NCBI GenBank assembly: GCA_030372965.1 | Contig: JAUCQC010000087.1 | Span: forward strand, 1 to 46,449 | Origin: a bacterium | GTDB lineage: Bacteria > Zhuqueibacterota > QNDG01 > DTFT01 | DNA: 46,449 nucleotides | Direction of reading: 5' to 3' | Made by a program: the position numbers and the translations under genes | Shown here: positions 9-16,090 of the stretch, piece after piece | Layout: each line of letters opens with the position of its first letter | How positions within the stretch are numbered: the stretch's first letter is position 1 | Notes under the pieces: generated by a model | Told to the model about the DNA's origin: nothing | Databases searched by the model: none | Seen by the model: only the letters and a program-made list of their open reading frames with translations

Positions 9-41
9 TCGTCGGCAGCGTCAGATGTGTATAAGAGACAG
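9..41 (+). other. Nextera read-1 transposase adapter (artefact)
   Basis: Bases 9-41 match the 33-base Illumina Nextera read-1 adapter, ending in the mosaic-end core AGATGTGTATAAGAGACAG at 23-41. It is not genomic. It makes two false protein ends: an N-terminal MYKRQ read from GTG at 27 on the + strand, and a C-terminal LSLIHI on the - strand. Bases 1-8 have no genomic support either. Confidence 0.97.
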
Positions 42-3000
42 CTTCTGAACCAAGTCCGGCGAAATCCCGCGAATTACGATGAAGCCTTCCATGTGTTCGA
101 CTACAGCCGATCGGACACCATACCCCTGGACTTCGTGAACGGCCACGTCTACCACCGCCGCATCATCCGGCAGTATCTGGGCAGTACGGACACCCTTTAT
201 CTGGACGCCGCGATTCCCGACTGTTTCCCGCCCGAGGACATCCGGAATCTGCGCGTGGACGCGTCGGTCGAGGATCCGGACGCGGCCTCGCCCTCGACCG
301 GTTATTCCCGATGGCACATGAACCTGACCTGGGATCCGGCGACGGACGGGGGCAGCGGGCTCCGGGGGTACCGGCTGTACCGCAAAATCACCGGCTATGA
401 CACCGTGTTCAGCGAAATCCCGGGAACCGGCCCGTACCGCCGCACCGCGTACACGGACCGCCTGACGGACCGGCCGGAAGTCGACATCCGCAACGCGATG
501 ATCCGGTATCGGATCGCATCGGAGGATTTCGTCGGCAATGTCCGCACCTGGGAGCAGTCCGTGTTCGAAACCGGGGAAAGGGCGCTCGGCGGACCGACGC
601 TTTCGTTCGTCAACACCCTGCCGCCGGATCAACTCCTGCGCGGCCCGGACACGCTCTTCGTCCGGGGAAACACCGTCGCCTTCCGGCTCGCGTCCTTTGA
701 CGTCGGCCCGGTGCTGTCGTACCGGGTTTCGGTCAACGGAGTGGAAACGCCGCACCGGAACACCGGTGTCGACACGCTGATCCTCCCGCTGACCGCGGAA
801 ACCTCCCGGATCAAGATCCGCGCGCTGTACCCGGCCGGCCGGTCGAGCGTCTGGTCCGGCGTCAAGGTCGTCATCCGCGCCTCGCGAATGCCCGTTCAGG
901 GCCTGACGGCATCGATCGACACCGCCTACTGGGGCGGCCACATTCACCTGCGCTGGCTCCGGCCCTCGGAGGACGTGTTCCGCTACGAGATTCTGCGCTG
1001 GACGGAAGGGCGGAACGCCACGACCGTCGGCCTGCTGTCCTCCTCGGCGGACACGCTGAGGTGGACGGATTTGTACGGGCAGGATGAGCTGCGAAACGCG
1101 CCGGGGGACACGCTCGAGGCTTACCGCGTCTACCGGTACAGCGTGCGCAAGGTGAACCTGTTCCAGGAGACGACGCCGCCCTCCGACACCGTGTCCGCGT
1201 TCTGCAACCGGCCGCCGCGCATCACGGCCCATGAAGTCAAGAGCGAGAACGGCCGGCTGGTCATCGAACTGCGCTGGACCCGGCCGCGTCCCAACCTGTT
1301 CCGTTCGGACTTCACGTCCCGTGTCCGCGTCTTCTCCGACAGCACCACGGGCGAGGCGTTGACGGAGGTCATCGCGGACGACGACACGACATTCACCTGC
1401 CGGACCGCGGCCCTCGGCCGCAATTCAATATTCCAGGTGCTCGAGATCCCCAACCACGATCCGCAGGGAAGGCGGAGCGCCTGGTCCCAGCCCTACACGG
1501 TGTCGTTCCGCACCGTGGACCTGGCCGTGCTGGCCCAGCCGCGCGGCCGGATGTTCGCCCACTGGGGTGATTCGTTCGTGGACAGCCTCCGCGTCAGCCG
1601 GTTCCAGCTGGTGCGGACCGCGGCCGGCGACACGTTCGACCTGATGCTGTCGAACCGCCAGTCCTCCTTCATGGATTTTTCCGAAACCCTCGTGAACGGC
1701 AGGCTGTACCGCTACGCCGTGTTCGCGCTGGATAGCCTGGATCACGTGGTCGCAGGGGAGGTGAAGGAGGATGTCTGCGACCGGGGATCCGCTTACATCC
1801 CCGACGTCAATCCCCTCGGGATGCGGTATTTCAATTCCGATTCCATCGACGTGTCCTGGCACTGGAACCCCGCCCCTGTCGAGGCGGGCGTGCCGGGAGC
1901 GGTCGTCCCCGTCACCGGCACCCGGGGCGCGGTCTCCTGCAGGCTGCAGGTGAGCGTGTCGCGGTCCTTCCCGTCCGATCCGGACCAGACCCTGACGCAG
2001 GGCCCGTTCCCGGCGGATCCGGACGCCCGCGCGCGGCGCGTGCCGATTCCGGACCTGAGCAACATCGAGAACGCGAGACTCTACTTCCGCATCACGGCCT
2101 CCGACCCCTGGGGCAACCCGGTCGAGAGCATCTGGTCGTCCGATTTCTACCCGGTGCAGACCGTGACATACGATCCCGTCCCGCCCAGGCCGGTGAACGC
2201 GGTGCAGTTCAATTCAACCGCGGCGTACTACGCCTCCCCGGACAGCGTGGTCCGGCGCCTCGCGTGGAGCGGGGCCGGCGTGGAGTTTCCCGCGGATCCG
2301 CAGGAGAACTGGAACGATCTGATCGGCAATGTCGCCGCGTATGAGCTGTACCGGAGCCAGGACGGCGGGCCCGAAACCCTCATCGCCGTTCAGCCGACTC
2401 AGCCGTGGCGAAGCGCGCCCTATGCCTGGGCGGACACGGCGGCGAACGCGGAAACCCGCTACCGAATCGTGTCCGTGGACAGCGCCGGGAACCGGACCGC
2501 CGGCGGGTGGCAGGCGCCCGCGTTCCGCGTCCCGACGCCCGAGCCGCCCGATCCGAGGGGGAAGCGCGCGTGCGCCTGGCGGCCGATTTCCGGAAGCGCG
2601 GCCCAGTACGTGGTGGAAATCGCCATGGACCCGCGGCATTTCCGGTACGCGTACGAGATGAACGCGCCTGCCGGTCTTGACAGCCTGGTCTGCCGGAGCG
2701 TGTGGCTCTCCGACACGGCCTTCGTCTGCCCGACCGGATGGGGCTCCATTCAGTGCGACACGACGTGGTTCCGCATCAAGGCCCGGCGGAGCGAAGGCGG
2801 ATTCACCGCCGAGAGCGGATGGTCTTCGCCCTCGTTTTTCGCCCCGGCGCCCGGCGTCGATCCGATAGCCGCTTCGGGCGCGGACGCCGGCCAGCCCGAA
2901 ACCTTCGGATTGAGCCAGAATTACCCGAATCCCTTCAACGCCTCCACCACGATCCGTTTTTCACTGAAGGACCCGTCGCGGGTCAGGCTCACGGTGGTGG

Positions 3001-3194
3001 ATGTCCGGGGCGCGCTGGTCGACCGGCTCGTGGAAGGGACGCGCCAGGCCGGCCGCCAGACCGTCGTCTGGAACGGCTGTGACCGGAACGGGCGTCCCGT
3101 CGCGTCCGGCCTCTACATCGCGGTTCTCTCCGCGGAATCGGAGACGACAGGCCGGACCTTCGCCAGGCGCGTCAAGATGGTCATGATCCGATGA
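42..3194 (+). CDS. Large secreted fibronectin-III repeat protein with C-terminal sorting domain (5' partial)
   Basis: The reading frame runs from the adapter junction to TGA at 3192-3194 (1050 residues); the true start and signal peptide are missing. The protein is a chain of beta-rich Fn3-like modules with recurring phrases of the type 'YRLYR', 'YELYRSQDGG' and 'RYRIVSVDSAGN'. The last ~85 residues begin with SQNYPNPFNASTTIRFSL and end in RRVKMVMIR, the pattern of type IX (type A) or FlgD-Ig-like C-terminal domains that deliver proteins to the cell surface in FCB-type lineages. It overlaps the next open frame by ATGA, suggesting cotranscription. It probably acts outside the cell as a surface or adhesion protein; the ligand is unknown. 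The first five residues of a naive translation (MYKRQ) are adapter. Confidence 0.9.
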   Translation, partial: LLNQVRRNPANYDEAFHVFDYSRSDTIPLDFVNGHVYHRRIIRQYLGSTDTLYLDAAIPDCFPPEDIRNLRVDASVEDPDAASPSTGYSRWHMNLTWDPATDGGSGLRGYRLYRKITGYDTVFSEIPGTGPYRRTAYTDRLTDRPEVDIRNAMIRYRIASEDFVGNVRTWEQSVFETGERALGGPTLSFVNTLPPDQLLRGPDTLFVRGNTVAFRLASFDVGPVLSYRVSVNGVETPHRNTGVDTLILPLTAETSRIKIRALYPAGRSSVWSGVKVVIRASRMPVQGLTASIDTAYWGGHIHLRWLRPSEDVFRYEILRWTEGRNATTVGLLSSSADTLRWTDLYGQDELRNAPGDTLEAYRVYRYSVRKVNLFQETTPPSDTVSAFCNRPPRITAHEVKSENGRLVIELRWTRPRPNLFRSDFTSRVRVFSDSTTGEALTEVIADDDTTFTCRTAALGRNSIFQVLEIPNHDPQGRRSAWSQPYTVSFRTVDLAVLAQPRGRMFAHWGDSFVDSLRVSRFQLVRTAAGDTFDLMLSNRQSSFMDFSETLVNGRLYRYAVFALDSLDHVVAGEVKEDVCDRGSAYIPDVNPLGMRYFNSDSIDVSWHWNPAPVEAGVPGAVVPVTGTRGAVSCRLQVSVSRSFPSDPDQTLTQGPFPADPDARARRVPIPDLSNIENARLYFRITASDPWGNPVESIWSSDFYPVQTVTYDPVPPRPVNAVQFNSTAAYYASPDSVVRRLAWSGAGVEFPADPQENWNDLIGNVAAYELYRSQDGGPETLIAVQPTQPWRSAPYAWADTAANAETRYRIVSVDSAGNRTAGGWQAPAFRVPTPEPPDPRGKRACAWRPISGSAAQYVVEIAMDPRHFRYAYEMNAPAGLDSLVCRSVWLSDTAFVCPTGWGSIQCDTTWFRIKARRSEGGFTAESGWSSPSFFAPAPGVDPIAASGADAGQPETFGLSQNYPNPFNASTTIRFSLKDPSRVRLTVVDVRGALVDRLVEGTRQAGRQTVVWNGCDRNGRPVASGLYIAVLSAESETTGRTFARRVKMVMIR

Positions 3195-3232
3195 GGACGC
3201 CTCCCGTGACCCGAATCTGGAGAAATCCGTAC

Positions 3233-4321
3233 ATGAAAACCACCCGAATCCTGACGTGCCTGCTGACGCTGATCCAGGGCCTCCTGGCGGCGGGGCCCCT
3301 CTTTCGCGGGACGGAGCGGGATCCCGCGTGGAGAACGTCGCCGGGGATCGCCGCGGTTCTGACGGCGCTGCCCGCGGACCTGACGCCCACGCTTCCCGCC
3401 CCGAGGCTTTACCGGGAGCCCGAATTCACGCTCGGAGAAACGAACTCGCTGGCCTGGCCCGCGGACAGCATCGAAACCGCGGCCGCGTCCGCCGGGTTCA
3501 CGGTCCTCTTCTACGAGATACAGGCGTCATACGACGCGGACGGGGTTTCCGAGGTTCTTTGGGGATTCGTCAACGCGGGCACGGATTCAGCCGTTTTCAC
3601 CGGACTGCCCGAAGGCCCCCCGGTCTCGTACCGGCTCCGCTATTACACCCGCAGCGCAGCGGACGGATTCGGCCTCAGCCTCTGGTCGGACCCGCAGGTT
3701 TCGATTCAGGACGCGCATCCGCCCGTTCTGTCGCGCTGGGATCTCTCGGGCCTACAGTCCGGGGAGACGGCCCGGTGGATCATCGGGCCGGCGCTGAATC
3801 ACCGCATCACCGCGTCGGATCTTCCGACCGGCCGCGTCATGGAGGTGTTCGTCCACGAGAAGAGCGCCGTTGTGGATGAAACCGTGGTCTACGACATCGT
3901 GCCCCCCCGGACGGAAGTGGACACGGTCCTGACGATGAACGCGCTGAAGACTCCGGCCCACCAGGCGGTGACCCTGTCGGTCTGGGTCCGCGACCGCGCC
4001 GGCCAGCCGTCCGACGTCCGGTCCATTGATCTGTTCTGGATCCCGGTCGAGGAATTCCGGATGTTCTCCTTTCCGAATCCGTTCCGGCCGGCGGCGGGCG
4101 AAATCGCGGTCATCCAGGTGCCCGCGCCGGACGCGGCCGTGCTCCGCATTTTCGACCCGTTCGGCAGTCTGGTCCGCATCCTGAGGAAATCCGACGCGGC
4201 GGACCTGTTTTTCCAATGGGACGGCCGGAACGACAGGGGGGACCTGGTCTCCACGGGCGGATACATCTGCGTGGTGGAAGGCCGGGAGAAACAGTACTGT
4301 AAAATCGCAGTGCTCAGATAA
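3233..4321 (+). CDS. Exported protein with FlgD/T9SS-like C-terminal domain
   Basis: A 362-residue protein. I prefer ATG 3233 over the in-frame ATG at 3191 because it starts a clean signal peptide (MKTTRILTCLLTLIQGLLAAG) and follows a GGAG about 10 bases upstream. The middle is a beta-rich region resembling Fn3. The C-terminal ~85 residues carry FSFPNPFRP, then 'VLRIFDPFGSLVRIL' and 'QWDGRNDRGDLVSTGGYIC', the FlgD-Ig / type IX sorting pattern, ending KIAVLR. It lies between the large Fn3 protein and the PorV-like barrel, so it is probably a cargo or surface partner of the same system. Specific function unknown. Confidence 0.85.
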   Translation: MKTTRILTCLLTLIQGLLAAGPLFRGTERDPAWRTSPGIAAVLTALPADLTPTLPAPRLYREPEFTLGETNSLAWPADSIETAAASAGFTVLFYEIQASYDADGVSEVLWGFVNAGTDSAVFTGLPEGPPVSYRLRYYTRSAADGFGLSLWSDPQVSIQDAHPPVLSRWDLSGLQSGETARWIIGPALNHRITASDLPTGRVMEVFVHEKSAVVDETVVYDIVPPRTEVDTVLTMNALKTPAHQAVTLSVWVRDRAGQPSDVRSIDLFWIPVEEFRMFSFPNPFRPAAGEIAVIQVPAPDAAVLRIFDPFGSLVRILRKSDAADLFFQWDGRNDRGDLVSTGGYICVVEGREKQYCKIAVLR

Positions 4322-4338
4322 ACGGGGCGGTCAAGACC

Positions 4339-6402
4339 ATGGATAAATTCAAAGGCACCGGCGGTTTCATCGCAGTGATCAGCTTGTGGACGGCGGCCTT
4401 CGCCTTCGCGGGGCCGGAGGGGGACGCCGGCAGGGCCGGCGCATTCCTGCGTTACGGCGTGGGCGGCCGGGCGCTCGGCATGGGCCGCGCCTTTGTGGGG
4501 GTCGCGGACGACGCCAGCGGCGTGTTCTGGAATCCGGCCGGGCTCGTGGGGGCTTCGCGCGTCGAGATCCAGTCGCTCTATTCCAACCTGTACTTCGACA
4601 GCCGCTATTCGCACCTGGGCATGGTTCTGCCCCGGCCGCTCGACAATCCGAAAAACCCCCTGCTCCGCTTCCTGTTCGGTCCGCGGACCGCGGTGGGATT
4701 CGGCTGGGTCGGGCTCGGCATGGTCGATTTTGAACAGCGCACGGCCACCGCCGAATTCATCGGCCGTTTCGGGCTGGAAGAGAACGCGTTTGCCGCGTCC
4801 TGGGCCAGGGAGGAGGCGGGATCATGGGGCCTGCTGCGGGCCGGCGTCACCGTCAAGGCCGTCAACCAGGGATTTTCCGGACTCGCGGACGGGGCCGGCG
4901 CGGTTCCGGGCGCGGAGGGCAGGGACTGGTCCGCGGGCGCGGATGTCGGCGCCACGTTCCAGCCGATTCACGCGCCCCTGTTCCGGTCGTTTTCGCTCCG
5001 GTACGTTCTGCCGCTCCGGTTCGGCGTCTCGGTGCAGAACCTCATTCAGCCCGCGTGGAAGCTCCAGTCCGGGGAAAACGATCCTTTCCCGCGCTCGGTG
5101 CGCTGGGGGCTCGCCTACCGCTGGGTGCTGAAGGACTGGTTCCCCAGGAGCTGGCAGACGGTCCAGTCGGTCGTGGAGGACGTCGACATACTGACGGCCC
5201 TCGATTGGGAGAAGGCCGAGGGATCCGGCACGGGCGTGTATTTCGGCGCGGAAGGCCGGATCCCGGTTCTGCGGCGCCGACTGCTGTGGTCCCCGCGTTT
5301 CGGCTTCAACAACCAGGCCGAGTGGATGTCGGTCGGCACGGGCCTGACCGTGCCCTTCGCGAAATCAGCCGCGGTCCGCATCGACCTCGCCCATGAACTG
5401 CATCCCGATCTCCCGAACGACACGCGGATGTCCATGACTTTCCAGTTCGGCGTTCCCCGCGACGCGGGCTTCTTCCGGCGCTGGTACGACCGCGCGGGCG
5501 GCGACACAGGCCCCCTGCTGAACATCGTCGCGGACTACCCGAACCCCGAAGTGAACGGAACCGTGAAGGTGCTGGCCGAATCGGACAGCCGGAACGCGTC
5601 CCGTTACAACGACCTGCTGCTCGGCATCGACCGGGCCGAGTGGATGTACCGGACCGCCGTGGATCTTCTGAAACGCAACGAGACGGACAAGGCGCGCCGC
5701 AAGGGCGCGGACGCCGGCCGTGAGTACGCGGCCCTGTTCAGCCGCCAGGAGAATCCGCTCACCGATCTTCAGCTCACCCATTACGGCGAGATGCTCCTGC
5801 TCACCGGACAACCCGAGTCCGCGGTGCCGGTGCTCCGCGAAGTCGAGAAAACAACTCCCCGCACCCATTACCTGACCGGAACCGCGTTCAAGGGCCTGGG
5901 CCGCTGGGATGCCGCGATCGCGGCCTTCGACAGCGCCATCCACAGCATCGGGGTCGCGGGTGAGCCCGTCCTCAACAGCATCGACTGTCTTTCGGCCCTC
6001 GGACTGGCGGAGTCCCTGATCCGGAACAACCGCAACGCCATGGCCCTGCAAGTGCTGGAGGACATGCTGACCCACTGCCAGGGACGCCTCGACGAGGATT
6101 ACCCGAGGTACCCGGTGTTCGAGGACGGCTACTGCGTGGACGACGCCCAGCTGCTCGTCGGCGTCTGCCTGATCCGGATGGCCCGGATCCGCGACGGGGT
6201 GAACGCCCTTCTCGAAGCGGACCGGTTCTATCCCCTCCTGACGAACGGACGCACGGCGGGCGGAATGGCTGACGACCTGATTCAAATGCTCTCGAACGAC
6301 GACACCGAGGGACTTCAGGACGCGGCGGAAACCCTGCTGGACGCCTATTCCGAGGCGCACGGACTCAACGGCCGGAATGCCGCGGTCCGCGCAGGCCGAT
6401 GA
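4339..6402 (+). CDS. PorV/PorQ-like outer-membrane barrel with C-terminal TPR region
   Basis: 687 residues. The signal peptide is followed by the family hallmark GGRALGMGRAFVGVADDASGVFWNPAGLVG near residues 38-70, typical of PorV/PorQ/UPF0164 barrels that shuttle or anchor type IX cargo. Barrel-like alternating strands run to about residue 385. The rest is helical and TPR-like (for example 'LTDLQLTHYGEMLLLTGQPESAVPVLREVEK' and 'GLGRWDAAIAAFDSAI'). PorV-type proteins are usually near 350-400 residues, so the extra ~300-residue helical tail is notable and may bind periplasmic partners. It follows two proteins with sorting domains, which fits a role as their outer-membrane receptor. Family call is firm; role in secretion is inferred. 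Confidence 0.82.
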   Translation: MDKFKGTGGFIAVISLWTAAFAFAGPEGDAGRAGAFLRYGVGGRALGMGRAFVGVADDASGVFWNPAGLVGASRVEIQSLYSNLYFDSRYSHLGMVLPRPLDNPKNPLLRFLFGPRTAVGFGWVGLGMVDFEQRTATAEFIGRFGLEENAFAASWAREEAGSWGLLRAGVTVKAVNQGFSGLADGAGAVPGAEGRDWSAGADVGATFQPIHAPLFRSFSLRYVLPLRFGVSVQNLIQPAWKLQSGENDPFPRSVRWGLAYRWVLKDWFPRSWQTVQSVVEDVDILTALDWEKAEGSGTGVYFGAEGRIPVLRRRLLWSPRFGFNNQAEWMSVGTGLTVPFAKSAAVRIDLAHELHPDLPNDTRMSMTFQFGVPRDAGFFRRWYDRAGGDTGPLLNIVADYPNPEVNGTVKVLAESDSRNASRYNDLLLGIDRAEWMYRTAVDLLKRNETDKARRKGADAGREYAALFSRQENPLTDLQLTHYGEMLLLTGQPESAVPVLREVEKTTPRTHYLTGTAFKGLGRWDAAIAAFDSAIHSIGVAGEPVLNSIDCLSALGLAESLIRNNRNAMALQVLEDMLTHCQGRLDEDYPRYPVFEDGYCVDDAQLLVGVCLIRMARIRDGVNALLEADRFYPLLTNGRTAGGMADDLIQMLSNDDTEGLQDAAETLLDAYSEAHGLNGRNAAVRAGR

Positions 6403-6427
6403 CCGAAACCCAACCGGGATGAATCCA

Positions 6428-7498
6428 ATGAAAAGCGCGCGATCGACCGCCCTCATTCTGTTCTTCGCCTGCCTCGCGGTTCTTCAGTCCGGCGCCGTTC
6501 CGGCCCGCGCCGCCGCCCGTCCGGCCCGGATCCTGCTGGTCACGCCCACGGACGGCCGGAAGATCGATGGACAGGCGGTGCTGTTCAGCTGGAAGGCGGA
6601 GGAGACCGATTCGACCTTCAAGCCCGGTTTCTACGAAGTGCAGATCTGGGACAAGGCGAAGAACTTCAGACGGACGGTGCGGGTCCAGGCGGAAGACTCG
6701 ACCGGATACGGCCAGGCCTGGATACACAATCCCAGGCAGGTGTTCCGGAAACACGGCGCCTACCTGTGGCGGGTCGTGGCTCTCGACGGCAACGGACGCC
6801 AGCGGATTTCAGGGACACGGCGTTTCGTGATGCCGCCCCCGAGAATCAAGCCGCTCATGGCCGGTCCGGGAAAAGGGCATTCCCTCCGTTTGGAATACAA
6901 TCACTGGTCGGATTTCGACTCCTACCGGCGTTTTACCGACCCCCTGTATCCGAAAACCCACCTGAAAAGCTACGCGGACATCGGAATCGGTTTCCGTCAA
7001 AGCTGGGAAACCGCGGTTCCGTTCACGGTTCAGGAACGGCTTTTGCTTCTCTCCCAGATCGGGATGGGCGCCGAACTGACGCCCCGCGTCCGGATTCTGC
7101 AGAACACCTTTCTGGCCGTGGACCCCTGGGTGCGCGGCCGTCAATGCTGGTATTCCACGAGCCTGAAGCATTACTCGGGCACGATTTCGGAAATCGCGGC
7201 CGGCACCGACGTCGTGGTCATGCCGGGCGGCCACCTGGTCCTGTCCGGCGCCTGGCTTCCGGTCAACCGCATCCGCTATGGACTGCGCGGGGGCGGCCTC
7301 CGCACCCTGCAGGGGGCCGGGTGGGAAGCCGGCGTCACGGTGACCCTTCCGCGAAGCCTGCTCTCGGTGATCCGGGTGGCGGGCGTGAACGTCGATTTTC
7401 AGCGGATGCCGATCGGTTTCGTGTTCGGACGGGTCGACGACGGCCTGACGGACATCCGGCTCGATTACCGCAGGTTCTCAATCGAATATCTGTTTTAG
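6428..7498 (+). CDS. Exported protein with Fn3-like domain and beta-strand-rich C-terminal half
   Basis: 356 residues from ATG 6428, which gives a good signal peptide (MKSARSTALILFFACLAVLQSG...ARAAA); ATG 6419 adds three residues and is possible. Residues ~35-135 look like one Fn3/Ig-type domain ('VLFSWKAEE...YEVQIWDKAKNF...GAYLWRVVALDGNGRQRISGTRRFVMPPP'). The remainder has amphipathic strands with aromatic ends and could be an outer-membrane barrel or a secreted beta domain; it ends DYRRFSIEYLF, a terminal Phe as in many outer-membrane barrels. It sits between the PorV-like gene and the ExbB-like gene. No specific function recognised. Confidence 0.72.
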   Translation: MKSARSTALILFFACLAVLQSGAVPARAAARPARILLVTPTDGRKIDGQAVLFSWKAEETDSTFKPGFYEVQIWDKAKNFRRTVRVQAEDSTGYGQAWIHNPRQVFRKHGAYLWRVVALDGNGRQRISGTRRFVMPPPRIKPLMAGPGKGHSLRLEYNHWSDFDSYRRFTDPLYPKTHLKSYADIGIGFRQSWETAVPFTVQERLLLLSQIGMGAELTPRVRILQNTFLAVDPWVRGRQCWYSTSLKHYSGTISEIAAGTDVVVMPGGHLVLSGAWLPVNRIRYGLRGGGLRTLQGAGWEAGVTVTLPRSLLSVIRVAGVNVDFQRMPIGFVFGRVDDGLTDIRLDYRRFSIEYLF

Positions 7499-7503
7499 AC
7501 CGA

Positions 7504-7534
7504 CGGCGCCCGGCCGGACGCGGCCGGGCCGCCG
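7504..7534 (+). repeat. Very stable GC hairpin between envelope genes
   Basis: An inverted repeat of about 12 pairs with a single bulge: CGGCGCCCGGCCG, loop GACG, then CGGCCGGGCCGCCG. It directly follows the TAG of the Fn3/barrel gene and precedes the ExbB-like gene by ~100 bases. There is no T-tract, so it is more likely a factor-dependent terminator, mRNA 3' stabiliser or processing site than an intrinsic terminator. Confidence 0.6.
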
Positions 7535-7630
7535 GATCCATCGGAGACACGCTTCCGGGCGTCCTTCCGCGGTTTCCGGATTCCTTTCGCGGACGGCCCG
7601 CAGAACCAATCAGCAGGAGGTTCAAATCCC

Positions 7631-8998
7631 ATGCGTTCCAATTCCATCACGCGCCTGAAGCGCCTCTGCCTGGCGGGGCTGGTGCTTTGCGGCGTCTCTT
7701 TATTCGGACAGGATCCCGCCGCCCAGGTGGCCATCACCGGCATCCGGAGAGACGTCCATAAGAAGTGGATTTTCATTCCGGACAAGGTCGACTACGCCGT
7801 GTCCTGGAGCGCCCAGATCCGCGAGGGCGAAATCTGGAGGCCGGCCGACCCGGAACGCTACACCTATCGGGTGACCTGTCAGCCCGCGGAGGGGGAATCC
7901 ATCGTTTCGAAACCCGTCACGGGCGGTCTCTACGGGTTCAAGGGCCTCCCCGTGGGGCAGGTCTACGCGTTCACGGTCGAGGCGCTCCGCGACGGCGTTC
8001 CGGTCGCCGAGTCCGAGATCGCGCGGGACACGGCCGGACGTCGGGGCGGGGAGGAGTCGAACGACGACATCGTCCGTTCCGGCTCCGGAGCGGAGAAATC
8101 CGTCTACTGGTTCGAAAAGTACCTGCCGATCAGCGGGCGCTGGGCCTATTTCTGGCGGCCGTCCATCTACGACTCCTCGTCGGTCATCGGCCGGCTCTGC
8201 TTCTGGCTGCTCTGGTGGGCTTGGCTGGCCGGGCTTTTCATCATCTTTTTCCGGTGCATGCCCACGCTCAAGTTTCAGAAAATTTTCCCGATGAGCAGCG
8301 GCGGCAACCGCGGACTGATGCGGGACCTGAAAAAGGACTACGCGGCGCGGATTTCGCCGGAATTCACGAATATCCTGGAACGGTGGAAACAGATCATCGA
8401 CAGCGCCAACTGGGGAATCCGCGAGTTCATCGGCAAGAAGCGCGGCCAGCTCGAATCCTCCACCAACGACCTGTCCGGCGCGAGCGTGAAATACTGGAGC
8501 GAACGCGGCAGCGTGGAGGTGCGCAAGCTGATCGACGAGATCGCGCACAAGAAACTGGACGAATACCCCACGGTCCGGGTGTTCAAGGCGGGGCTCGAGA
8601 ATCACGAAACCGGCGGTTTCCGGTGGATGGACGTGGCCAAGGAAGTGGAGACGTCCATCGAGAACCAGGCGGCCTCCGAGCTGGAGGTGCTGAAGCGCGA
8701 TTCGGTGTACGATTTCCTCTGGAACCTGGGCACCGTGGCGCCCCTGCTCGGCCTGCTGGGGACGGTGACCGGCATTTCCAAGTCGTTCGACGACCTCGCC
8801 AACCTGCCCGACAACGCGACCCAGAAACAGCTCATTCACCAGCTCGCCGGCGGCATTCACGAGGCCCTCTGGACGACCATCGAAGGCCTGATTTTCGGCA
8901 TCACCTTCATGATGATCTACTACTACTACCAGAAGAAGCTCGAGTGGATCTACTCCAAGTGGGAAGAGGATTACGTGTACGTCATTGAGCGCCTGTAG
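7631..8998 (+). CDS. MotA/TolQ/ExbB-family proton channel with N-terminal periplasmic domain
   Basis: 455 residues, preceded by AGGAGG at 7614-7619. A signal peptide (to ~residue 26) leads into a Fn3-like exported domain (~27-150: 'YAVSWSAQIREGEIWRPADPERYTYRV'). TM1 lies near 187-208, a long cytoplasmic helical loop runs to ~355, then TM2 (~363-382, 'GTVAPLLGLLGTVTGISKSF') and TM3 (~413-433, 'TTIEGLIFGITFMMIYYYY') carry the ExbB/TolQ signature. ExbB and TolQ form the pentameric proton channel driving TonB- or TolA-type force transfer. Most ExbBs are ~240 residues and lack the exported domain. Two ExbD genes and a TonB-like gene follow directly, giving a complete motor. Confidence 0.88.
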   Translation: MRSNSITRLKRLCLAGLVLCGVSLFGQDPAAQVAITGIRRDVHKKWIFIPDKVDYAVSWSAQIREGEIWRPADPERYTYRVTCQPAEGESIVSKPVTGGLYGFKGLPVGQVYAFTVEALRDGVPVAESEIARDTAGRRGGEESNDDIVRSGSGAEKSVYWFEKYLPISGRWAYFWRPSIYDSSSVIGRLCFWLLWWAWLAGLFIIFFRCMPTLKFQKIFPMSSGGNRGLMRDLKKDYAARISPEFTNILERWKQIIDSANWGIREFIGKKRGQLESSTNDLSGASVKYWSERGSVEVRKLIDEIAHKKLDEYPTVRVFKAGLENHETGGFRWMDVAKEVETSIENQAASELEVLKRDSVYDFLWNLGTVAPLLGLLGTVTGISKSFDDLANLPDNATQKQLIHQLAGGIHEALWTTIEGLIFGITFMMIYYYYQKKLEWIYSKWEEDYVYVIERL

Positions 8999-9025
8999 AA
9001 CGCCCGGCGCCCCGGGGAACCGAAG

Positions 9026-9628
9026 ATGGCCTTTCAGAAAAAACGGGAACAGAAAGAGCTCAACCTGCCGAGCCTCATCGACGTGGTGTTCCTGCTGCTG
9101 ATTTTCTCGCTGGTGACGATCCCCGTCGAACGGACGGAAAACGTCCAGCCCCAGGAGCAGCGCTCTCCGGCGTCGAGCGAGCTGAAGCTTCCGTTCGTGG
9201 CGAGCCCGAAGGTGGTCGACATCGACCCGATTCTGCGGTCCCTGCTCATCCAGATCGAGAACCGGGACCCGGACGACCCGGCCTCGGGCCGCCTGGTCTA
9301 CATTCTCCGGCCGTCGGAAAGCGATTCCACGATCGGGCAGACTCGGCGGTCCGCGATACGCGATTCGCTGGTCGCGGCCTTTCCGGACAGCTTTCTCGCG
9401 CTCTCCGACGAGGAATTCACCCGCACGGCCGCCTGCCGGCTGATCCGCGATCAGATCCGGGGGCATTTGGACCGGCGGAACCGCCCGTCGGGGTTTCCGC
9501 CCCGGGTCGAGATCCGGGCGGTGAAGGACACCGAATTCCGCATCGTCAACTTCATCATGCGGGAATGCAGCGCCCACGGCGACTCGATCCCGTCGATCTC
9601 GGTGCGGACGTTCAGCCATCCGATGTAA
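9026..9628 (+). CDS. ExbD/TolR-family motor subunit (first of two)
   Basis: 200 residues. A short cytoplasmic basic N-terminus (MAFQKKREQKELNLPS) is followed by one TM helix with the conserved proton-carrying Asp in 'SLIDVVFLLLIFSLVT', then a periplasmic domain of ~165 residues. The final part ('IRAVKDTEFRIVNFIMRECSAHG') matches the ExbD periplasmic fold pattern in which small-molecule-like strands alternate with helices. The periplasmic part is longer than the ~100 residues of usual ExbD. It lies 27 bases after the ExbB-like gene and 12 bases before a second ExbD. Confidence 0.87.
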   Translation: MAFQKKREQKELNLPSLIDVVFLLLIFSLVTIPVERTENVQPQEQRSPASSELKLPFVASPKVVDIDPILRSLLIQIENRDPDDPASGRLVYILRPSESDSTIGQTRRSAIRDSLVAAFPDSFLALSDEEFTRTAACRLIRDQIRGHLDRRNRPSGFPPRVEIRAVKDTEFRIVNFIMRECSAHGDSIPSISVRTFSHPM

Positions 9629-9640
9629 AGGAGAGGGTTC

Positions 9641-10249
9641 GTGGCTTTCAAGAGACGGATCATGGGCCGGAAGGACCTGCAGCTGGTCTCCTGCATGGAC
9701 ATGATTTTCAACCTGCTGCTCTTCTTTCTGGTCACCAGTTACATCGCCACCAACGCCAAATTGGAGAAACGCTTCGTTTTCCCCACCCCCAAGTACGACC
9801 TGGGATCGGCCGAGATCTTCATCCAGTGGATCGACAACCAGTCCGTCTTCTGGATCGACCAGGCGGCCTCCTCGCAGGTCCAGCGCGTGCTCGACCAGTA
9901 TTCCTACATGACCCCGGAGGAGCAGAATCGCGAGACGGTGGCGCTCCTCAAGATTCAGAACAAGATGGACGCCGGCCAGCTGGAGCGGAAGCTCCAGGCC
10001 GTCGTGGACGCGGCCGACGCCAATCCCGGCCGCAAGTATTTCGCGCTGCTGCGATGTCCGAACGAGGTGCCCTACGCGCGCGTGATCGAGGCCGTGGCGA
10101 AGCTGTCCTCCGCGAAGTACGGCAACGTCGAGTACGGGTGCGTGGGCGGCTCGCTCGCCGACCTGCGGATGGGCGTTCTGGAGCGCACCGATCCGGACGG
10201 GAACCTGCGGCGCCTGATTCGCATCGATTTCGAGGGGGCGGGCACATGA
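9641..10249 (+). CDS. ExbD/TolR-family motor subunit (second of two)
   Basis: 202 residues from GTG 9641, supported by AAAGGAGAG just upstream. The N-terminus MAFKRRIMGRKDLQLVSC leads to a TM helix with the conserved Asp ('CMDMIFNLLLFFLVTSYI'). The periplasmic part ends in 'LLRCPNEVPYARVIEAVAKLSSAKYGNVEYGCVGG', a standard ExbD-like motif. It differs strongly from the first ExbD, so the channel may contain a heteromeric ExbD pair, as known for some gliding and type IX motors and some Ton systems. Its stop overlaps the next start as ATGA. Confidence 0.87.
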   Translation: MAFKRRIMGRKDLQLVSCMDMIFNLLLFFLVTSYIATNAKLEKRFVFPTPKYDLGSAEIFIQWIDNQSVFWIDQAASSQVQRVLDQYSYMTPEEQNRETVALLKIQNKMDAGQLERKLQAVVDAADANPGRKYFALLRCPNEVPYARVIEAVAKLSSAKYGNVEYGCVGGSLADLRMGVLERTDPDGNLRRLIRIDFEGAGT

Positions 10250-10893
10250 GGGCCCCGACACGGCACCGCGATGCCGCCGGCGTCCGGCGGGAGCCGGCCG
10301 ACGGCCGAACCGCGGCAACCGGCCGAAGACGGTGGTGGCTGTGGCTTCTCGCGGCCCTTCCGGTCCTGGCCGCGGCCGCGGTTCTCTCCGTCCTGTATCT
10401 CCGCCTGCCCGCGGACAAGCCCTTCGCGCCGCGCATGGCGGCCAGCGAAATCATCGAGGTCCCCAGGCGGCCCGGCATCTACGGCATCCTCATCGACATT
10501 CCCCAGGAAAAGCCCAATGTTTTCGCCGTCGACCTGCTCCGGTCCGAGCCCGTCGACTGGCGCCAGCTGCAGGTGATCGACTACCGGGCCGACGTGCGGG
10601 TGTACGCCATGATCGGATCCGACGGGCGCATCGCGATCACGGACGTGATCGACGTGGACCACGCCCGTGCCGGCCGGTTCATCGTCCAGTCCGTGAAGTC
10701 CTGGGTGTACAAGCCGCTCAAGAGCGGACGCGTGGTGTTCCACTTCAACCTTCCTTCCGAGGGGGAGAAGCTGATCATCTACACGTCCGGCCTGAAGCGG
10801 AATCCGGACATCGACCGGGAGATTCCGGTTCTCGACGGCCGGCTCCACAACGTGGCGGGCATTGATCCGTCGCTCGTGCGGGTGGTCAAGTAG
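10246..10893 (+). CDS. TonB-like single-pass protein
   Basis: 215 residues from ATG 10246, overlapping the ExbD stop by ATGA. A basic N-terminus is followed by one TM helix at ~30-53 ('WLWLLAALPVLAAAAVLSVLYL'). The soluble part has 'YAMIGSDGRIAITDVIDVDHARAGRFIVQSVKSWVYKPLKSGRVVFHFNLPSEGEKL'. This resembles the TonB C-terminal pattern in which 'V.V.F.I..dG.V....v..s......d.a....v..WrF.P....G..V' precedes a beta strand. It lacks the long Pro/Lys-rich spacer of classical TonB, so its reach across the periplasm would be short unless another protein bridges. Position after ExbB-ExbD-ExbD supports an energy transducer role. Confidence 0.7.
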   Translation: MRAPTRHRDAAGVRREPADGRTAATGRRRWWLWLLAALPVLAAAAVLSVLYLRLPADKPFAPRMAASEIIEVPRRPGIYGILIDIPQEKPNVFAVDLLRSEPVDWRQLQVIDYRADVRVYAMIGSDGRIAITDVIDVDHARAGRFIVQSVKSWVYKPLKSGRVVFHFNLPSEGEKLIIYTSGLKRNPDIDREIPVLDGRLHNVAGIDPSLVRVVK

Positions 10894-11081
10894 TCTTCTC
10901 CCGCGCGTTTCGCGCCCCCGGACCATCCGCCCGGGCAACCGTTCTCCGCGGCGGGGAGGAGACCCGGTTCGAGGCCGGCATCGACGCGAAACCCGGGACT
11001 GCTGATATGGGAAAGAAGTCCGTCAATCGGGTATCCGTTTCCATGCGCTGTACGGCGTCCACAAACAATGAGGTTTGTTTC

Positions 11082-14000
11082 ATGCGCATCCAGAAGGTCT
11101 TCACAGTCATCGCGATGACCGTTAGCGTCTCCGCGTCGGCGCAGGAGCCGTTTTTCGGCGCCAGCCGGCTGCAGCTTTTCAACCGCGGAGAATACCGGGC
11201 CGCCGTGGATTCCATCCAGGCCTGGATGAAACGCACCACAGCCGAAACCGAGCTGGGCTACTATTACATCGGCGAGAGCCGGTACAACCTCGGGCTGGCT
11301 TCGGCGAACGCGTCAGAGGCCGCCGGTCATTTCGACGAGGCTTTGGCGGCTTTCGACGCGTGCCTCAAGCGCGTGCCCGTGCGAGATTCGAATCCCTACC
11401 TGCACGACAACGCCCGGTACAAGAAAGCCTGGGCCCATTTCCGCATGTCCGAGCTGAGAGGCTGGGGCGCGGAGGACCTGGAGAAGGCGCAGGCGATTTT
11501 CAGAGACCTGTCCAAGTCCGTCGACGATTCCCTGCGGGTGGCCGCGCTGTACATGGAGGGTGAGACCACGCTCCTGCTTGCGGAGCACCAGCGCCTGCGG
11601 ATCGCGGCCCTGGCGCAGAGTTACCAGGCTCAGAAGGCCGTGGACGGGTGCCTCGCCGCGGCGGCGTCATTCCGCGCCGCGGCCTCGGACCCGGCCGCGC
11701 CCGCGGATCTCAGGACCGCGGCGCTGATACGGCACCGCGACGCCGCGTACGAGCGCGGATGCGTGTATGAATCCGTATCCGGCTCGGCATTCGCGTCGAT
11801 CCGCGACCCGCGAAAGGCATCGACCCCCTCCGCGACCGCGGCCGAATTCTTCCGCCGCGCCGCCTACTCGGGCCTCGCGGATTCGGTTTCCTTCAACGCC
11901 CGGCCCGTGATCGCCGTCTCCGATCTGGCCGCCGGGCTCCACGCTTTTCTGAACAGCGGGTCGGCGCAGGACCGGCAGGCCCTTGACCGCCAGCTTGAGA
12001 GACAGGCCGCGTCCCCTTCGGCGGCGGAGCGCGCGTTCGCCCGGGGCCTGCGAGACAGCCGGGACATCGCGAACAGCGCGGGGTTCAGGGACAACGAGAC
12101 TTTCACCAACCGCATTTTCGCGCTCATCGAGCAGAATCTGACGCCGGCCTACGCCGCCATTCCCGAAGCCCGTTTCTGGGCGGGCCGGCTGAACGCCCTC
12201 ACCGGGGCCGAAGAGGCCAGGGCCGCTTTCGAGACGTTTCTGGCCGAGACCGAAGGATCCTCCGGGGATTTCAGGATGCGGGTTCTGCGAGAGGACTGCC
12301 GGCTTCAGCTCCTCGCCATGTCCTTCGAGAGGGCCGTCTCGGCCGGTTCAGGATCCGCGCTCCGCGCGTTTATCACGGAGGCCGATCAGTTCAAACCGGA
12401 AACCGCCTTCGTCCGCGAGAAGAAAGCCGCGCTCCGCGACCTGGCGTCCGTTCTGCTCGATCCCAAGAACGTGTGGCAGAACCTCGAGGGTTCCCCGGAC
12501 ACCCGGATCGACGCCATCTTCGGAATCGTGCGCAGCCTGCTCGTGCGCGCCAACCAGGTCGTGGGTCAGGACCGGCGGAACATCCTGAACAAGATCGAGC
12601 CCCTGTTCAAATTCACCCAGAGCAAACGCGAGTCCGAAACCCGCTATTACCAGGGCCTGTACCGGTTTCTGGACGCCGAGATCCAGGTCAAGAACAAGGG
12701 CGCCCGGTTCAAGGAGGCGGCCGACCGGGTCAAGGACTGCCGGGGCGAATTTGAGCTCGAGGGGAAATACCTCCGCGCGCGCAGTCTGCTCGCGGCGGAC
12801 GAATTCGACGACGCGCGTGCCCTTTTCATCTCTCTCGTCAACGAGGGCCAGAGCGTCCGGTCCGCTTATTTCCTCGGCGAGATCCTGCGCCGCGAACGGA
12901 AAACCGCGGCCGCCCGGCAGTGCTACGAAGCGGTCATCCGCAGGACCGAGGGCGCGCCGGGGGGCGAGATCTGGGCCAACGCCGCGGCTTCCGCGAACCG
13001 CGCCATCGATGAATCCAGGGAGGCGCTGGCCGGGGACACCGATGTGCTGAACGGCGTCCGGCTCGACGCCATTCAATTCCCCGAGCCCTGGAGCCGGGGC
13101 GGAGACGTATCGGTGGAACAGTTCGTCGAATCCGTGTACCAGAAAACGGCCGTTCTGCAGGAAGGCCTGTCGCTGATGCTCCGGTACGGCATCCCCAAGG
13201 CCGCCTTGTCCCCGTCCGCGTTTTCGACGCCGGGCGTCCGTCCGCGTTCCGCCGTGTTCGCCGGCCTGAACGCCGGAATCCGGGAACGGACCGGCGCCGT
13301 TCTCTCGACGCTGGTGTTGAGCGTCGCGTTTCCGGACGGCCCCGGCGCCGGCGCGTCCGTGTTCGTCAACGGCGAACCCGTCGAACTGGACGGCAACGGG
13401 ACGGTCCGAAAAACCTATTCCCTCGGCGACACAGCCTCGATCCGCGTCACCGGCGAGGGATTCTACCCGGTCTTCCGAACCGTGAAATTCTCGGTGCCGC
13501 GCGAGACCCGTCTCGTGATCTCTCTGGTGCCGGCCCTGTCCTTCGTGCGCGCCGACAGCCGCGGCAGCGCCGATCTCATGCGTTTCGCCGAGCGGCTCGA
13601 CGGTAACGCGGTCTTCGTCCCGGGAGGAGGCGCCGGTCTCGCCGCCACCGGCCTCGTCCGGGCGTTCCAGTCCAACGTGGCGTACCGGGATTTCGCCTAC
13701 TCGAGCGTGCACCAGGGCTATCTGATGACCCAGGCCCGCCAGGGGCGGATTCTGCTCTACCGCGACGCCGCCAACCACGCCGTCGAGGAGGAATTCCGGG
13801 TTCAGTTTGCGGACACGACCCGGCTGGTCAGCCCGGAAGGCGTCTCGGCGGATTCCAAGGGCAATGTCTACGTGGTGGACTGGGCGCGCCACACGGTGTT
13901 CGTCTTCGGGCCGGACGGCGTCTGTCTGCGCTCGTTCGGCGGATTCGGCGAGAACGGACCGGAGGATGTCGGCAAGCCGGCCCGCTTCTGCTATCCGTCC

Positions 14001-14273
14001 CGCATCGCGGTGGCGGAGGACCTGGAGGGCGTCGACATACAGGGAGACCGCTTCCACCGGCCCATCGAACTGTTCGTGACGGACCGGAACGGCATTCACT
14101 TTCTGGATGAGAACGGAACCTACCTGAACTCCGTCGTCATGATGCCGCAGGAAAAGGGATCGCTCACCGCGCTGGCCGTCACGGGATACGGCGCTAGGAC
14201 GTCGATTTCCGCGTACAACCGCCGGACCGGCGAGGTTCAGCGTTTCATGGGAGCGGCCCAGACCGCCAGATGA
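11082..14273 (+). CDS. Exported TPR-PEGA-NHL repeat protein
   Basis: 1063 residues. ATG 11082 is chosen over the upstream in-frame ATG 11007 because it opens a signal peptide (MRIQKVFTVIAMTVSVSASAQ) right after GAGG. Residues ~25-720 are helical TPR-like repeats ('LFNRGEYRAAVDSIQAWM', 'YYYIGESRYNLG', 'SAYFLGEILRRERKTAAARQCYEAVI'). Residues ~747-816 resemble a PEGA domain ('ASVFVNGEPVELDGNGTVRKTYSLGDTASIRVTGEGFYP'). Residues ~866-1040 look like NHL/propeller blades ('GNVYVVDWARHTVFVFGPDGVCLRSFGGFGENG'). It follows the Ton-like motor and is a good candidate for the periplasmic or outer-membrane partner moved by it; this link is inferred from position. The last four bases overlap the next gene. 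Confidence 0.82.
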   Translation: MRIQKVFTVIAMTVSVSASAQEPFFGASRLQLFNRGEYRAAVDSIQAWMKRTTAETELGYYYIGESRYNLGLASANASEAAGHFDEALAAFDACLKRVPVRDSNPYLHDNARYKKAWAHFRMSELRGWGAEDLEKAQAIFRDLSKSVDDSLRVAALYMEGETTLLLAEHQRLRIAALAQSYQAQKAVDGCLAAAASFRAAASDPAAPADLRTAALIRHRDAAYERGCVYESVSGSAFASIRDPRKASTPSATAAEFFRRAAYSGLADSVSFNARPVIAVSDLAAGLHAFLNSGSAQDRQALDRQLERQAASPSAAERAFARGLRDSRDIANSAGFRDNETFTNRIFALIEQNLTPAYAAIPEARFWAGRLNALTGAEEARAAFETFLAETEGSSGDFRMRVLREDCRLQLLAMSFERAVSAGSGSALRAFITEADQFKPETAFVREKKAALRDLASVLLDPKNVWQNLEGSPDTRIDAIFGIVRSLLVRANQVVGQDRRNILNKIEPLFKFTQSKRESETRYYQGLYRFLDAEIQVKNKGARFKEAADRVKDCRGEFELEGKYLRARSLLAADEFDDARALFISLVNEGQSVRSAYFLGEILRRERKTAAARQCYEAVIRRTEGAPGGEIWANAAASANRAIDESREALAGDTDVLNGVRLDAIQFPEPWSRGGDVSVEQFVESVYQKTAVLQEGLSLMLRYGIPKAALSPSAFSTPGVRPRSAVFAGLNAGIRERTGAVLSTLVLSVAFPDGPGAGASVFVNGEPVELDGNGTVRKTYSLGDTASIRVTGEGFYPVFRTVKFSVPRETRLVISLVPALSFVRADSRGSADLMRFAERLDGNAVFVPGGGAGLAATGLVRAFQSNVAYRDFAYSSVHQGYLMTQARQGRILLYRDAANHAVEEEFRVQFADTTRLVSPEGVSADSKGNVYVVDWARHTVFVFGPDGVCLRSFGGFGENGPEDVGKPARFCYPSRIAVAEDLEGVDIQGDRFHRPIELFVTDRNGIHFLDENGTYLNSVVMMPQEKGSLTALAVTGYGARTSISAYNRRTGEVQRFMGAAQTAR

Positions 14274-15151
14274 AGCGGATCCTTCGCACAAAAGTCATCG
14301 TCAACCGCGAGTCCCAGCCGCGGAAGGTCAAGCGGTATCTCAAGCCGTCGCTGAACATCCTGCGGAAGAACGGATTCAAGCTCTCGGTTCATTTCACGAA
14401 ACGGGAAGGGGAGGTGCTGCCGGTGACCCGGCAGGCGCTCGCCGAGGGGTTCGACGCGATCCTCGTGGCGGGCGGGGACGGGACGACAAACGAAGCGATC
14501 AATGCCATCATGCCGAGCGACGTGCCGCTCGGCATTCTGCCGTTCGGCGGCAGCAATGTCGTGGCCCGGGAGCTGTCGATTCCGCTCGATCCGGTCAAGG
14601 CGGCCGAAATCATCGCCCGCCGCGGCATTCGGCGCATCGACCTGGGCCGGGCCAACGGACGCTATTTCGCCATGATGGCGGGATGCGGATACGACGCCTA
14701 CGCCATCAGCCGCACGAGCAAACGGATCAAAAAGATCATCAGCCGCTACGCTTACGTATGGGCCGGCCTCAAGGATTTCTTCGGATACCGGCCGGTTGAG
14801 ATCCGCGTGTCGCTGGACAACGGAAAGGTTCAGGAGCGCGGAACCTTCGTCGTGGCCGCCAACACGCACTTCTACGGCGGATCCCACGAAATGACCCCCT
14901 TCGCGGAGGTGGATGACGGGTTCCTCGACGTTCTGCTCTACAAGGGACGATCCCAGCTGGGACTGGCCCGTTTCGTCCTGAGCCTGTTTTACCGCCAGCA
15001 CCTGAGAATGAAACACGTCCGGTACTACCGGGTGCGGCGCGTGGAATTCCATTCGGACCATCCCACGATCGCCCAGATCGACGGCGATGTGCTGGGCGCT
15101 CTGCCGGTCCGCATCGAGGTCGTTCCGGCCGCCCTGAACGTGTTCTGCTGA
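14270..15151 (+). CDS. Diacylglycerol/lipid kinase family protein (YegS/DgkB-like)
   Basis: 293 residues, ATGA overlap with the TPR-NHL gene. The DAGK catalytic domain is shown by 'AILVAGGDGTTNEAINAIM' with GGDGT at residues 68-72, followed by 'PLGILPFGGSNVVARELSIP'. The C-terminal half has the paired beta-sandwich pattern of YegS/DgkB ('VVAANTHFYGGSHEMTPFAEVDDGFLDVLLYKG', 'VEFHSDHPTIAQIDGDVLGALPVRIEVVPAALNVF'). Such enzymes use ATP to phosphorylate diacylglycerol, sphingoid bases or related lipids at the inner membrane. The N-terminal NPxSG phrase of the family is degenerate here. Substrate cannot be told from sequence. Confidence 0.9.
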   Translation: MKRILRTKVIVNRESQPRKVKRYLKPSLNILRKNGFKLSVHFTKREGEVLPVTRQALAEGFDAILVAGGDGTTNEAINAIMPSDVPLGILPFGGSNVVARELSIPLDPVKAAEIIARRGIRRIDLGRANGRYFAMMAGCGYDAYAISRTSKRIKKIISRYAYVWAGLKDFFGYRPVEIRVSLDNGKVQERGTFVVAANTHFYGGSHEMTPFAEVDDGFLDVLLYKGRSQLGLARFVLSLFYRQHLRMKHVRYYRVRRVEFHSDHPTIAQIDGDVLGALPVRIEVVPAALNVFC

Positions 15152-15175
15152 GCGGCGGCCGCGCGGGAGGACGTC

Positions 15176-16009
15176 ATGGAGCCTGTTCGACACGCGGTTC
15201 TCGCCGGAGACTGGTACCCCGGGGACAGGGCCGAACTCCGTAAATGGATCCGCGCTTTTCTGGATGCCGTGCCTCCGCCGGGGTCCCAAAAGACCGGCCT
15301 CATCGGACTGATCAGCCCGCACGCCGGGTATGTGTATTCGGGTTTCACCGCGGCCCACGGCTACCGCCTTCTGGAGGGTCGCGATTTCGAGATCGCGGCC
15401 GTTCTTTCTCCCTATCACGGAATCCCCTCCGGTGACATCATGGTTCACACCGCTTCCGCGTATGAAACGCCGCTCGGACGCGTTCCCGTCGCAAGGGACC
15501 TGATCGAGGCCATGCGGCGCGACACGCAGGTGACGGAACTGGATGGAGAAGAGGAGCATTCCATCGAAATTCAGCTCCCATTTCTGCAGACGGTTCTGAA
15601 GCCGTTCCGCCTCCTGCCGCTGATGATCGGGAACCGGGACGTGCGGCGGGTGGAAAACGCGGTTCAGGCGCTTTTCCACGCGCTCCGGGAGCAGAACGCC
15701 GTCCTGATCGCGAGCACGGACATGCATCACCTGGACGATTACGAAGACGTCAAGGTCAGGGACAAACAGGTGGCGGACGCGCTGGAAACCATGGAACTCG
15801 ATCGGATACGGAATATTCTGAGGCCGGATGAATGCACGGTTTGCGGCAAAGTGCCGATATCCATTGTGCTGGAAACCGCGATGAAAATGGGCGCCAACCG
15901 CCTTCGAACCCTGTACCGGAGCAATTCACGGGACGAATTCAGGGGAAAATATAAAGGATCATATACAGTCGGGTATCTTTCCGCGGCGATCCTGAAGGAA
16001 TCCGCTTGA
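15176..16009 (+). CDS. MEMO-family protein (AmmeMemoRadiSam system protein B-like)
   Basis: 277 residues, preceded by GGGAGG. Family hallmarks are 'VLAGDWYPGD' near the N-terminus, 'GLISPHAGYVYSGFTAAHGY', 'LDGEEEHSIEIQLPFLQTVL' and 'LIASTDMHHLDDYE'. The His, Cys and Asp positions of these motifs form the dioxygenase-like metal site of MEMO1 (here 'CTVCGKVPISIVLETA'). Bacterial members are often encoded with an AMMECR1 protein and a radical SAM enzyme, neither of which is in this window. The role of bacterial MEMO proteins is not established. The -35 box of the perR promoter overlaps its stop codon. Confidence 0.88.
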   Translation: MEPVRHAVLAGDWYPGDRAELRKWIRAFLDAVPPPGSQKTGLIGLISPHAGYVYSGFTAAHGYRLLEGRDFEIAAVLSPYHGIPSGDIMVHTASAYETPLGRVPVARDLIEAMRRDTQVTELDGEEEHSIEIQLPFLQTVLKPFRLLPLMIGNRDVRRVENAVQALFHALREQNAVLIASTDMHHLDDYEDVKVRDKQVADALETMELDRIRNILRPDECTVCGKVPISIVLETAMKMGANRLRTLYRSNSRDEFRGKYKGSYTVGYLSAAILKESA

Positions 16010-16034
16010 CTTTATGTTAAATTTTCCATAAATT
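16006..16034 (+). promoter_or_regulatory. Sigma-70-type promoter of the PerR-type gene
   Basis: TTGACT at 16006-16011 (5 of 6 to consensus) lies 17 bases before TAAATT at 16029-16034 (4 of 6). It sits at the sharp AT-rich break after the MEMO gene and its -10 box abuts a perfect inverted repeat matching a PerR box. Predicted from sequence only. Confidence 0.65.
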
Positions 16035-16048
16035 AATAACGATTATTA
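16034..16048 (+). promoter_or_regulatory. Putative PerR/Fur-family operator
   Basis: TAATAACGATTATTA is a perfect 6-3-6 inverted repeat. It matches the Bacillus PerR box TTATAATnATTATAA at 11 of 14 defined positions. It overlaps the end of the -10 element and the expected transcription start of the PerR-type gene, the classic arrangement for autorepression. Confidence 0.72.
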
Positions 16049-16090
16049 TTTTTGAATCCATTTGTTTTCATCCGAAAAGCGATCCCAGCC

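Follow-up and report, generated by a model that had tools for sequence, protein, structure and literature searches.

A conserved operon of Zhuqueibacterota that combines an ExbB/ExbD-type motor with a probable PorV-family barrel and sorting-domain proteins, and its possible role as a surface-protein machine

We analyzed a 46,449-nucleotide stretch of DNA (the window) that makes up the entire contig JAUCQC010000087.1 from a bacterium of the phylum Zhuqueibacterota (assembly GCA_030372965.1; 304 contigs, 3.28 Mb, 84.7% complete). The window opens with nine genes, all on the forward strand and separated from their neighbors by small gaps or overlaps (Table 1). They encode two surface proteins with sorting-type C-termini (SORT1 and SORT2), a probable PorV/PorQ-family barrel with a TPR tail (PORV), a further exported protein (FNBAR), one ExbB-like and two ExbD-like proteins (EXBB, EXBD1, and EXBD2), a TonB-like protein, and a TPR/NHL protein. 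This arrangement is conserved in distant relatives, and the genomes that carry it encode a type IX exporter at other loci. The reading that we favor, though tentatively, is that the operon specifies a dedicated proton-driven trans-envelope machine that may pull on or move its own carrier-bound surface proteins after their export.

Table 1. Features at the beginning of the window, with the basis of each assignment
Feature	Position	Strand	Description and basis
SORT1	42..3194	+	Large surface protein, 5'-truncated, with a type A type IX sorting domain (TIGR04183)
SORT2	3191..4321 (start may be 3233)	+	Second sorting-domain protein, PorZ-like/FlgD-like C-terminus (hidden Markov model)
PORV	4339..6402	+	Probable PorV/PorQ-family barrel with TPR tail (family profiles, structure model)
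FNBAR	6428..7498 (6428 is the likely start)	+	Exported protein with C-terminal Phe; weak Ig/Fn3-like match
EXBB	7631..8998	+	TolQ/ExbB proton-channel protein (PF01618, 1.3e-20)
EXBD1	9026..9628	+	ExbD/TolR (PF02472); invariant transmembrane Asp19
EXBD2	9641..10249	+	Second, different ExbD/TolR (PF02472); invariant transmembrane Asp20
TonB-like protein	10246..10893	+	One transmembrane helix (25-52), linker of about 33 residues, TonB-CTD-like fold (about 85-215)
TPR/NHL protein	11082..14273 (11082 is the likely start)	+	Beta-propeller scaffold with TPR and NHL; signal peptide, no lipobox
Nextera transposase adapter	9..41	+	Sequence TCGTCGGCAGCGTCAGATGTGTATAAGAGACAG; artefact of the contig end, not biology

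Conservation of the gene order

The comparison sample consisted of 82 genomes of the same phylum, which were searched with EXBB as the query, and 31 stretches around EXBB matches were read for gene order with family hidden Markov models (HMMs). The order SORT1-SORT2-PORV-(FNBAR)-EXBB-EXBD1-EXBD2-TonB-like-TPR/NHL was found at 26 loci (L033 to L058) from 24 genomes, not counting the window, usually with gaps shorter than 60 bases between genes. Some of these loci end at a contig edge, in a few the gaps are wider or there is an additional gene, and simple gene calling skipped one gene each in L041 and L052. Chance is excluded as the source of the gene order because it persists in all of these loci while most of the proteins are 20 to 48% identical to those of the window. 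The head-to-tail arrangement that a first-pass annotation had noticed in the letters of the window was thereby borne out across families of the phylum. In addition, a gene on the opposite strand precedes SORT1 in L034, L036, and L037, which is consistent with an operon that starts at SORT1.

Approximately 28 of the 82 genomes carry the cluster; the combined EXBB and TPR/NHL matches yield 27, and one more (G034) is counted because PORV and part of EXBB lie together on a short contig (L063). Besides the window's genome, its taxonomic order is represented by 11 genomes, and 10 of them are carriers. The scores of the full-length TPR/NHL profile are bimodal, with about 26 genomes lying far above NHL-only noise; when run on 16 genomes reached by way of other loci, as a check for the cluster in other phyla, this profile gave NHL- or TPR-level matches alone, and none in two Fibrobacter genomes. 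The TonB-like profile matched in 26 of the 82 genomes, every one of which carries the cluster or a variant with two tandem ExbB-like genes. The variant was seen in three further genomes, all of family f13, and at a second locus of G026 (L059 to L062 altogether), and its downstream genes have diverged. In three genomes (G004, G007, and G026) the cluster or its variant occurs twice, and every copy is accompanied by sorting proteins and a barrel of its own. FNBAR is optional, being present in the window's taxonomic order and at one locus of G004 (L053) and absent from families f8 and f12 and from most f9 loci. A contig scan with an ExbB query returned mostly ordinary ExbB/TolQ proteins among the matches listed, which is no proof of the cluster's absence elsewhere.

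The conservation is uneven along the operon. Scores for the motor and scaffold proteins are near level across the main cluster loci, EXBB reaching approximately 460 to 600 bits there, 384 bits in L058, and less still at the variant loci with two ExbB genes and on fragmentary contigs, whereas the scores of SORT1 and SORT2 fall steeply outside the taxonomic order. SORT1 drops from approximately 2,000 bits to 100 to 450 bits; SORT2, which scores 489 to 544 bits within the order, is conserved mainly at its C-terminus in distant loci (L053, L058, L059, and L061). At several loci outside the order the C-terminal domain alone of these proteins is recognizable, and at others repeat parts are recognizable too. 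Pairwise identities of EXBB, the TPR/NHL protein, the TonB-like protein, and EXBD2 correlate at 0.86 to 0.91, those of EXBD1 at 0.77 to 0.82, and those of PORV lowest, at 0.60 to 0.67. Such correlations are expected for co-inherited genes and, taken alone, count for little as evidence.

Predicted motor, scaffold, and surface components

EXBB begins with a signal-peptide-like segment followed by approximately 150 extracytoplasmic residues and then by TolQ-type membrane helices, with the TolQ/ExbB channel domain at residues 315 to 445. It aligns with both TolQ and ExbB structures, TolQ being its nearest solved relative. Five positions are invariant in the family (P371, G377, T378, T415, and T416) and E411 is at least 90% conserved; judging from the alignment, EXBB retains the proton-path residues of TolQ. 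A channel domain with conserved Thr and Glu and an ExbD transmembrane Asp are the marks of a TolQ/ExbB-ExbD/TolR motor, and both were found here. The ExbB-ExbD-ExbD-TonB-like gene set first read from the open reading frames is supported by PF01618, by PF02472 in two successive genes, and by a TonB-like structure model. No GldLM homologues were found within the cluster, whose motor genes match PF01618 and PF02472 instead. The sole other MotA/TolQ/ExbB match in the window's genome sits in a Tol locus (L064, 9832-12945) made up of TolQ-like, ExbD/TolR-like, TonB_2-containing, and TolB-like genes.

The TonB-like protein gave no match in the Pfam scan. In a search with its AlphaFold 2 model (pLDDT 87), the six best PDB matches were all TonB C-terminal domains (CTDs), the best with an E-value of 0.0066 and a probability of 0.97. 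Its linker of about 33 residues would extend to no more than 11 to 12 nm when fully stretched, and this shortness suggests that a periplasmic partner would be needed. The obvious candidate would be the TPR/NHL protein, which is presumably periplasmic. TPR and NHL were both recovered in the latter by the domain scan, while the PEGA domain that the first-pass annotation had placed between them was not confirmed. In the type IX system of Porphyromonas gingivalis, PorE is a scaffold that joins TPR to a beta-propeller (PMC7192894); it is a lipoprotein and also bears CRD and OmpA_C domains. The TPR/NHL protein likewise combines the two, with no homology implied, and differs by a far longer TPR part and by having TPR and NHL only, with no lipobox and no OmpA_C in the Pfam scan.

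PORV is modeled as a 14-strand barrel (approximately residues 75 to 370) followed by a TPR tail of about 310 residues of helices (approximately residues 376 to 686) that is presumably periplasmic. FadL and the type IX secretion protein PorV (6h3i_F) are among the best structural matches of the model. The window copy scores 49 bits with PorV_fam, below the cut-off of 90, and all 20 family members match PorV_fam at an E-value below 0.001; PorVQ2 is matched by 20 of 20 and PorQ by 18 of 20. The earlier assignment of a PorV-type barrel with a TPR tail agrees with the model and with the family matches, with the window copy itself under the threshold.

The claim that two of the proteins end in sorting-type domains stands, more firmly for SORT1 than for SORT2. 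The C-terminus of SORT1 (sorting domain at approximately residues 966 to 1040 of the frame starting at 27) passes TIGR04183 with 23.8 bits against a cut-off of 23, and 8 of 9 members of its family have a TIGR04183-type match at an E-value of 0.01 or less. For SORT2, the FlgD_ig score of 26.6 bits is slightly below the cut-off of 27, and the weaker support comes from the PorZ C-terminus, which aligns with the C-terminus of 15 of 20 family members. Within the taxonomic order, SORT1 is conserved over its full length, with a mean column identity of 47%. The orthologues in this order are 30 to 43% identical to the window protein and measure approximately 1,460 to 1,494 residues, starting with a hydrophobic N-terminus, compared to 1,050 residues in the window. 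The SORT1 gene is 5'-truncated in the window because a Nextera adapter occupies the contig end, where it is read through as coding sequence.

Type IX secretion in the same genomes

Sov/SprA was found in 79 of the 82 genomes, with 841 bits in the window's genome against a cut-off of 200, and the PorU sortase exceeds its cut-off in 73, with 830 bits in the window's genome. About a dozen PorV-family barrels lie above the family cut-off in that genome, and the best of them (301 bits) is located away from the cluster. Given that Sov/SprA, PorU, and a strong PorV-family barrel are all encoded away from the locus, the phylum has a type IX exporter separate from the cluster. In the sprA neighborhoods fetched, the cluster was not adjacent to sprA. 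The idea that genomes with the cluster might lack sov can therefore be dismissed.

GldL exceeded its cut-off in 0 of 82 genomes (one sub-threshold match in G009, none in the window's genome) and GldM and GldN had no match in any of them, in profile searches run without a positive control, so that absence is not proven. The 830- to 840-bit scores of the SprA and PorU models make it less likely that the GldL, GldM, and GldN models failed because of distance. The first-pass remark that GldL and GldM are not seen at this locus can thus be extended to the sampled phylum, with the same limit. According to reviews and recent work, type IX export is driven by GldLM and is Bacteroidota-specific or possibly shared with other phyla of the Fibrobacterota-Chlorobiota-Bacteroidota (FCB) group. 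A literature search on KSB1, the probable name of the phylum, found no paper on type IX secretion.

Could the cluster be the general type IX motor of the phylum? It is present in roughly one-third of the genomes compared to 79 of 82 for SprA, and the near-complete genomes G077 (100%), G068 (98%), and G020 (97%) contain SprA and PorU without it; the cluster is therefore not the general energizer of type IX export, and this candidate was ruled out. The proposal that an ExbB/ExbD motor is a different way to energize surface delivery fails in that general form, while it is still a sound reading that the motor serves only the surface proteins of its own operon.

Separately, an ordinary ExbB-ExbD pair adjoins sprA and an M28 peptidase gene in L164, L165, and L166, followed by a TonB_C protein in L165, and a looser neighborhood of the same kind occurs in L160 and L171. 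From this gene context, the pair is a candidate for the SprA motor in the genomes of families f20 and f21. We rejected it as a general motor, since the pair directly adjoins sprA in the f20 and f21 loci read, is less closely placed in f15, and does not have this position in the remaining families that were read.

Possible function of the operon

From the gene content and order, the conserved proton-path residues, the two predicted folds, the type IX exporter, and the lack of detectable GldL, GldM, and GldN, we infer the contacts among the proteins, the direction in which force flows, and the function in the cell. EXBB, EXBD1, and EXBD2 would assemble in the inner membrane as a TolQR/ExbBD-type motor. 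The short TonB-CTD protein, which probably does not span the periplasm by itself, would hand on the output of this motor to the TPR/NHL scaffold, and the scaffold would relay it to the TPR tail of PORV in the periplasm. SORT1 and SORT2 would be exported beforehand by the SprA/PorU system encoded elsewhere and held at the cell surface by PORV via their sorting domains. The motor could then pull on or move this surface complex, in gliding, force-loaded adhesion, or surface remodeling.

Two known machines are close to this layout. In Myxococcus, AglRQS comprises one TolQ-like and two ExbD/TolR-like proteins that work with GltG, which has a TonB match, and with predicted outer-membrane and TPR proteins (PMC3169522). 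The cluster resembles the AglRQS-Glt system of Myxococcus xanthus in having one TolQ-like, two different ExbD/TolR-like, TonB-domain, and predicted outer-membrane and TPR proteins, a likeness of domain pattern only. It differs in that all parts are encoded in one operon, that the carrier is probably of the PorV/PorQ family, and that the surface proteins bear type IX sorting domains. In Bacteroidota, the gliding adhesin rides on the outer-membrane protein SprF, which is driven from the periplasmic side (PMC12635249). With this type IX and gliding machinery (SprA, PorV, GldKLMN, and SprF-SprB), the cluster shares sorting-domain proteins, a probable PorV-family carrier, SprA and PorU in the same genomes, and a proton motor that presumably works on surface proteins held by a carrier, but its motor is ExbB/ExbD/TonB-like, with no GldL, GldM, or GldN detected, and its locus is apart from sprA.

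Among the other explanations, the motor might take the place of GldLM and itself supply the energy for type IX export by driving complexes of carrier and substrate out of SprA, either in general or for its own substrates. The extraction of substrates from the translocon is inferred to need energy in Bacteroidota (PMC10994853), SprA and PorU occur in the phylum whereas none of the 82 genomes has GldL, GldM, or GldN above the cut-off, and the only other TolQ/ExbB found in the window's genome belongs to the Tol locus. The restricted distribution of the cluster compared to that of SprA and PorU, the near-complete genomes that do without it, and its position away from sprA speak against such a role, as does the missing positive control of the Gld models, and we consider it unlikely.

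An uptake function appears improbable to us. Here PORV, FNBAR, or both would be importers of the FadL kind that the TonB-like protein operates, with SORT1 and SORT2 binding ligands at the surface; ExbB-ExbD-TonB is an uptake kit whose gene set and order the cluster shares, the TonB-CTD fold is present, and FadL barrels are structural neighbors of PORV. However, the cluster genes include no TonB-dependent receptor family (receptors elsewhere in the genome were not searched), the linker of the TonB-like protein is short, the PorV and PorQ matches of the PORV family favor type IX carriers, and the large TPR/NHL scaffold has no counterpart in Ton uptake. The cluster further differs from a Ton system in the additional N-terminal extracytoplasmic domain of EXBB and in that its motor is tied to this barrel, to sorting proteins, and to the TPR/NHL protein. 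Slightly less probable still is a static complex for surface attachment or envelope stabilization, comparable to PorU-PorV-PorQ-PorZ plus a second Tol-like system. The PorZ-like C-terminus of SORT2, the PorQ-like character of PORV, and the closeness of EXBB to TolQ among solved structures are in line with it, but it does not account for a dedicated motor that has two ExbDs together with a TonB-CTD protein, the genome already has its own Tol locus, and variation is seen in the surface proteins but not in the motor.

The dedicated machine that we prefer has to be weighed against several points. With so many PorV-family barrels in the genome, adjacency is insufficient to prove that SORT1 and SORT2 bind PORV. 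The Foldseek match of the TonB-like protein spans part of the model (TMt 0.45 to 0.55) with a modest top E-value, and nutrient uptake normally relies on the same kit of ExbB/ExbD and a TonB-CTD protein. Finally, we know of no motility or adhesion phenotype in these bacteria. It is conceivable, although less likely than not, that the operon represents a previously undescribed system, in which surface proteins bound to type IX carriers are moved by a TolQR/ExbBD-type motor, with a TonB-CTD protein and a TPR/propeller scaffold as the transmission, and which evolved apart from GldLM. If true, this phylum, in whose type IX exporter no GldLMN energy chain can be recognized, would possess a machine of the gliding or adhesion type. 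The operon is also a separate instance of a proton motor that appears to be coupled to carriers of the type IX style, and it provides a comparison for the suggested connection of gliding with type IX export. The phylum-wide presence of SprA and PorU without detectable GldL, GldM, or GldN also makes the power source of SprA outside Bacteroidota directly testable.

Directly after the cluster, the window contains lipid kinase, MEMO1-like, and Fur-family genes (14270-16504). The lipid kinase and MEMO1-like genes occupy the same place in several genomes of the taxonomic order and not in the other families read.

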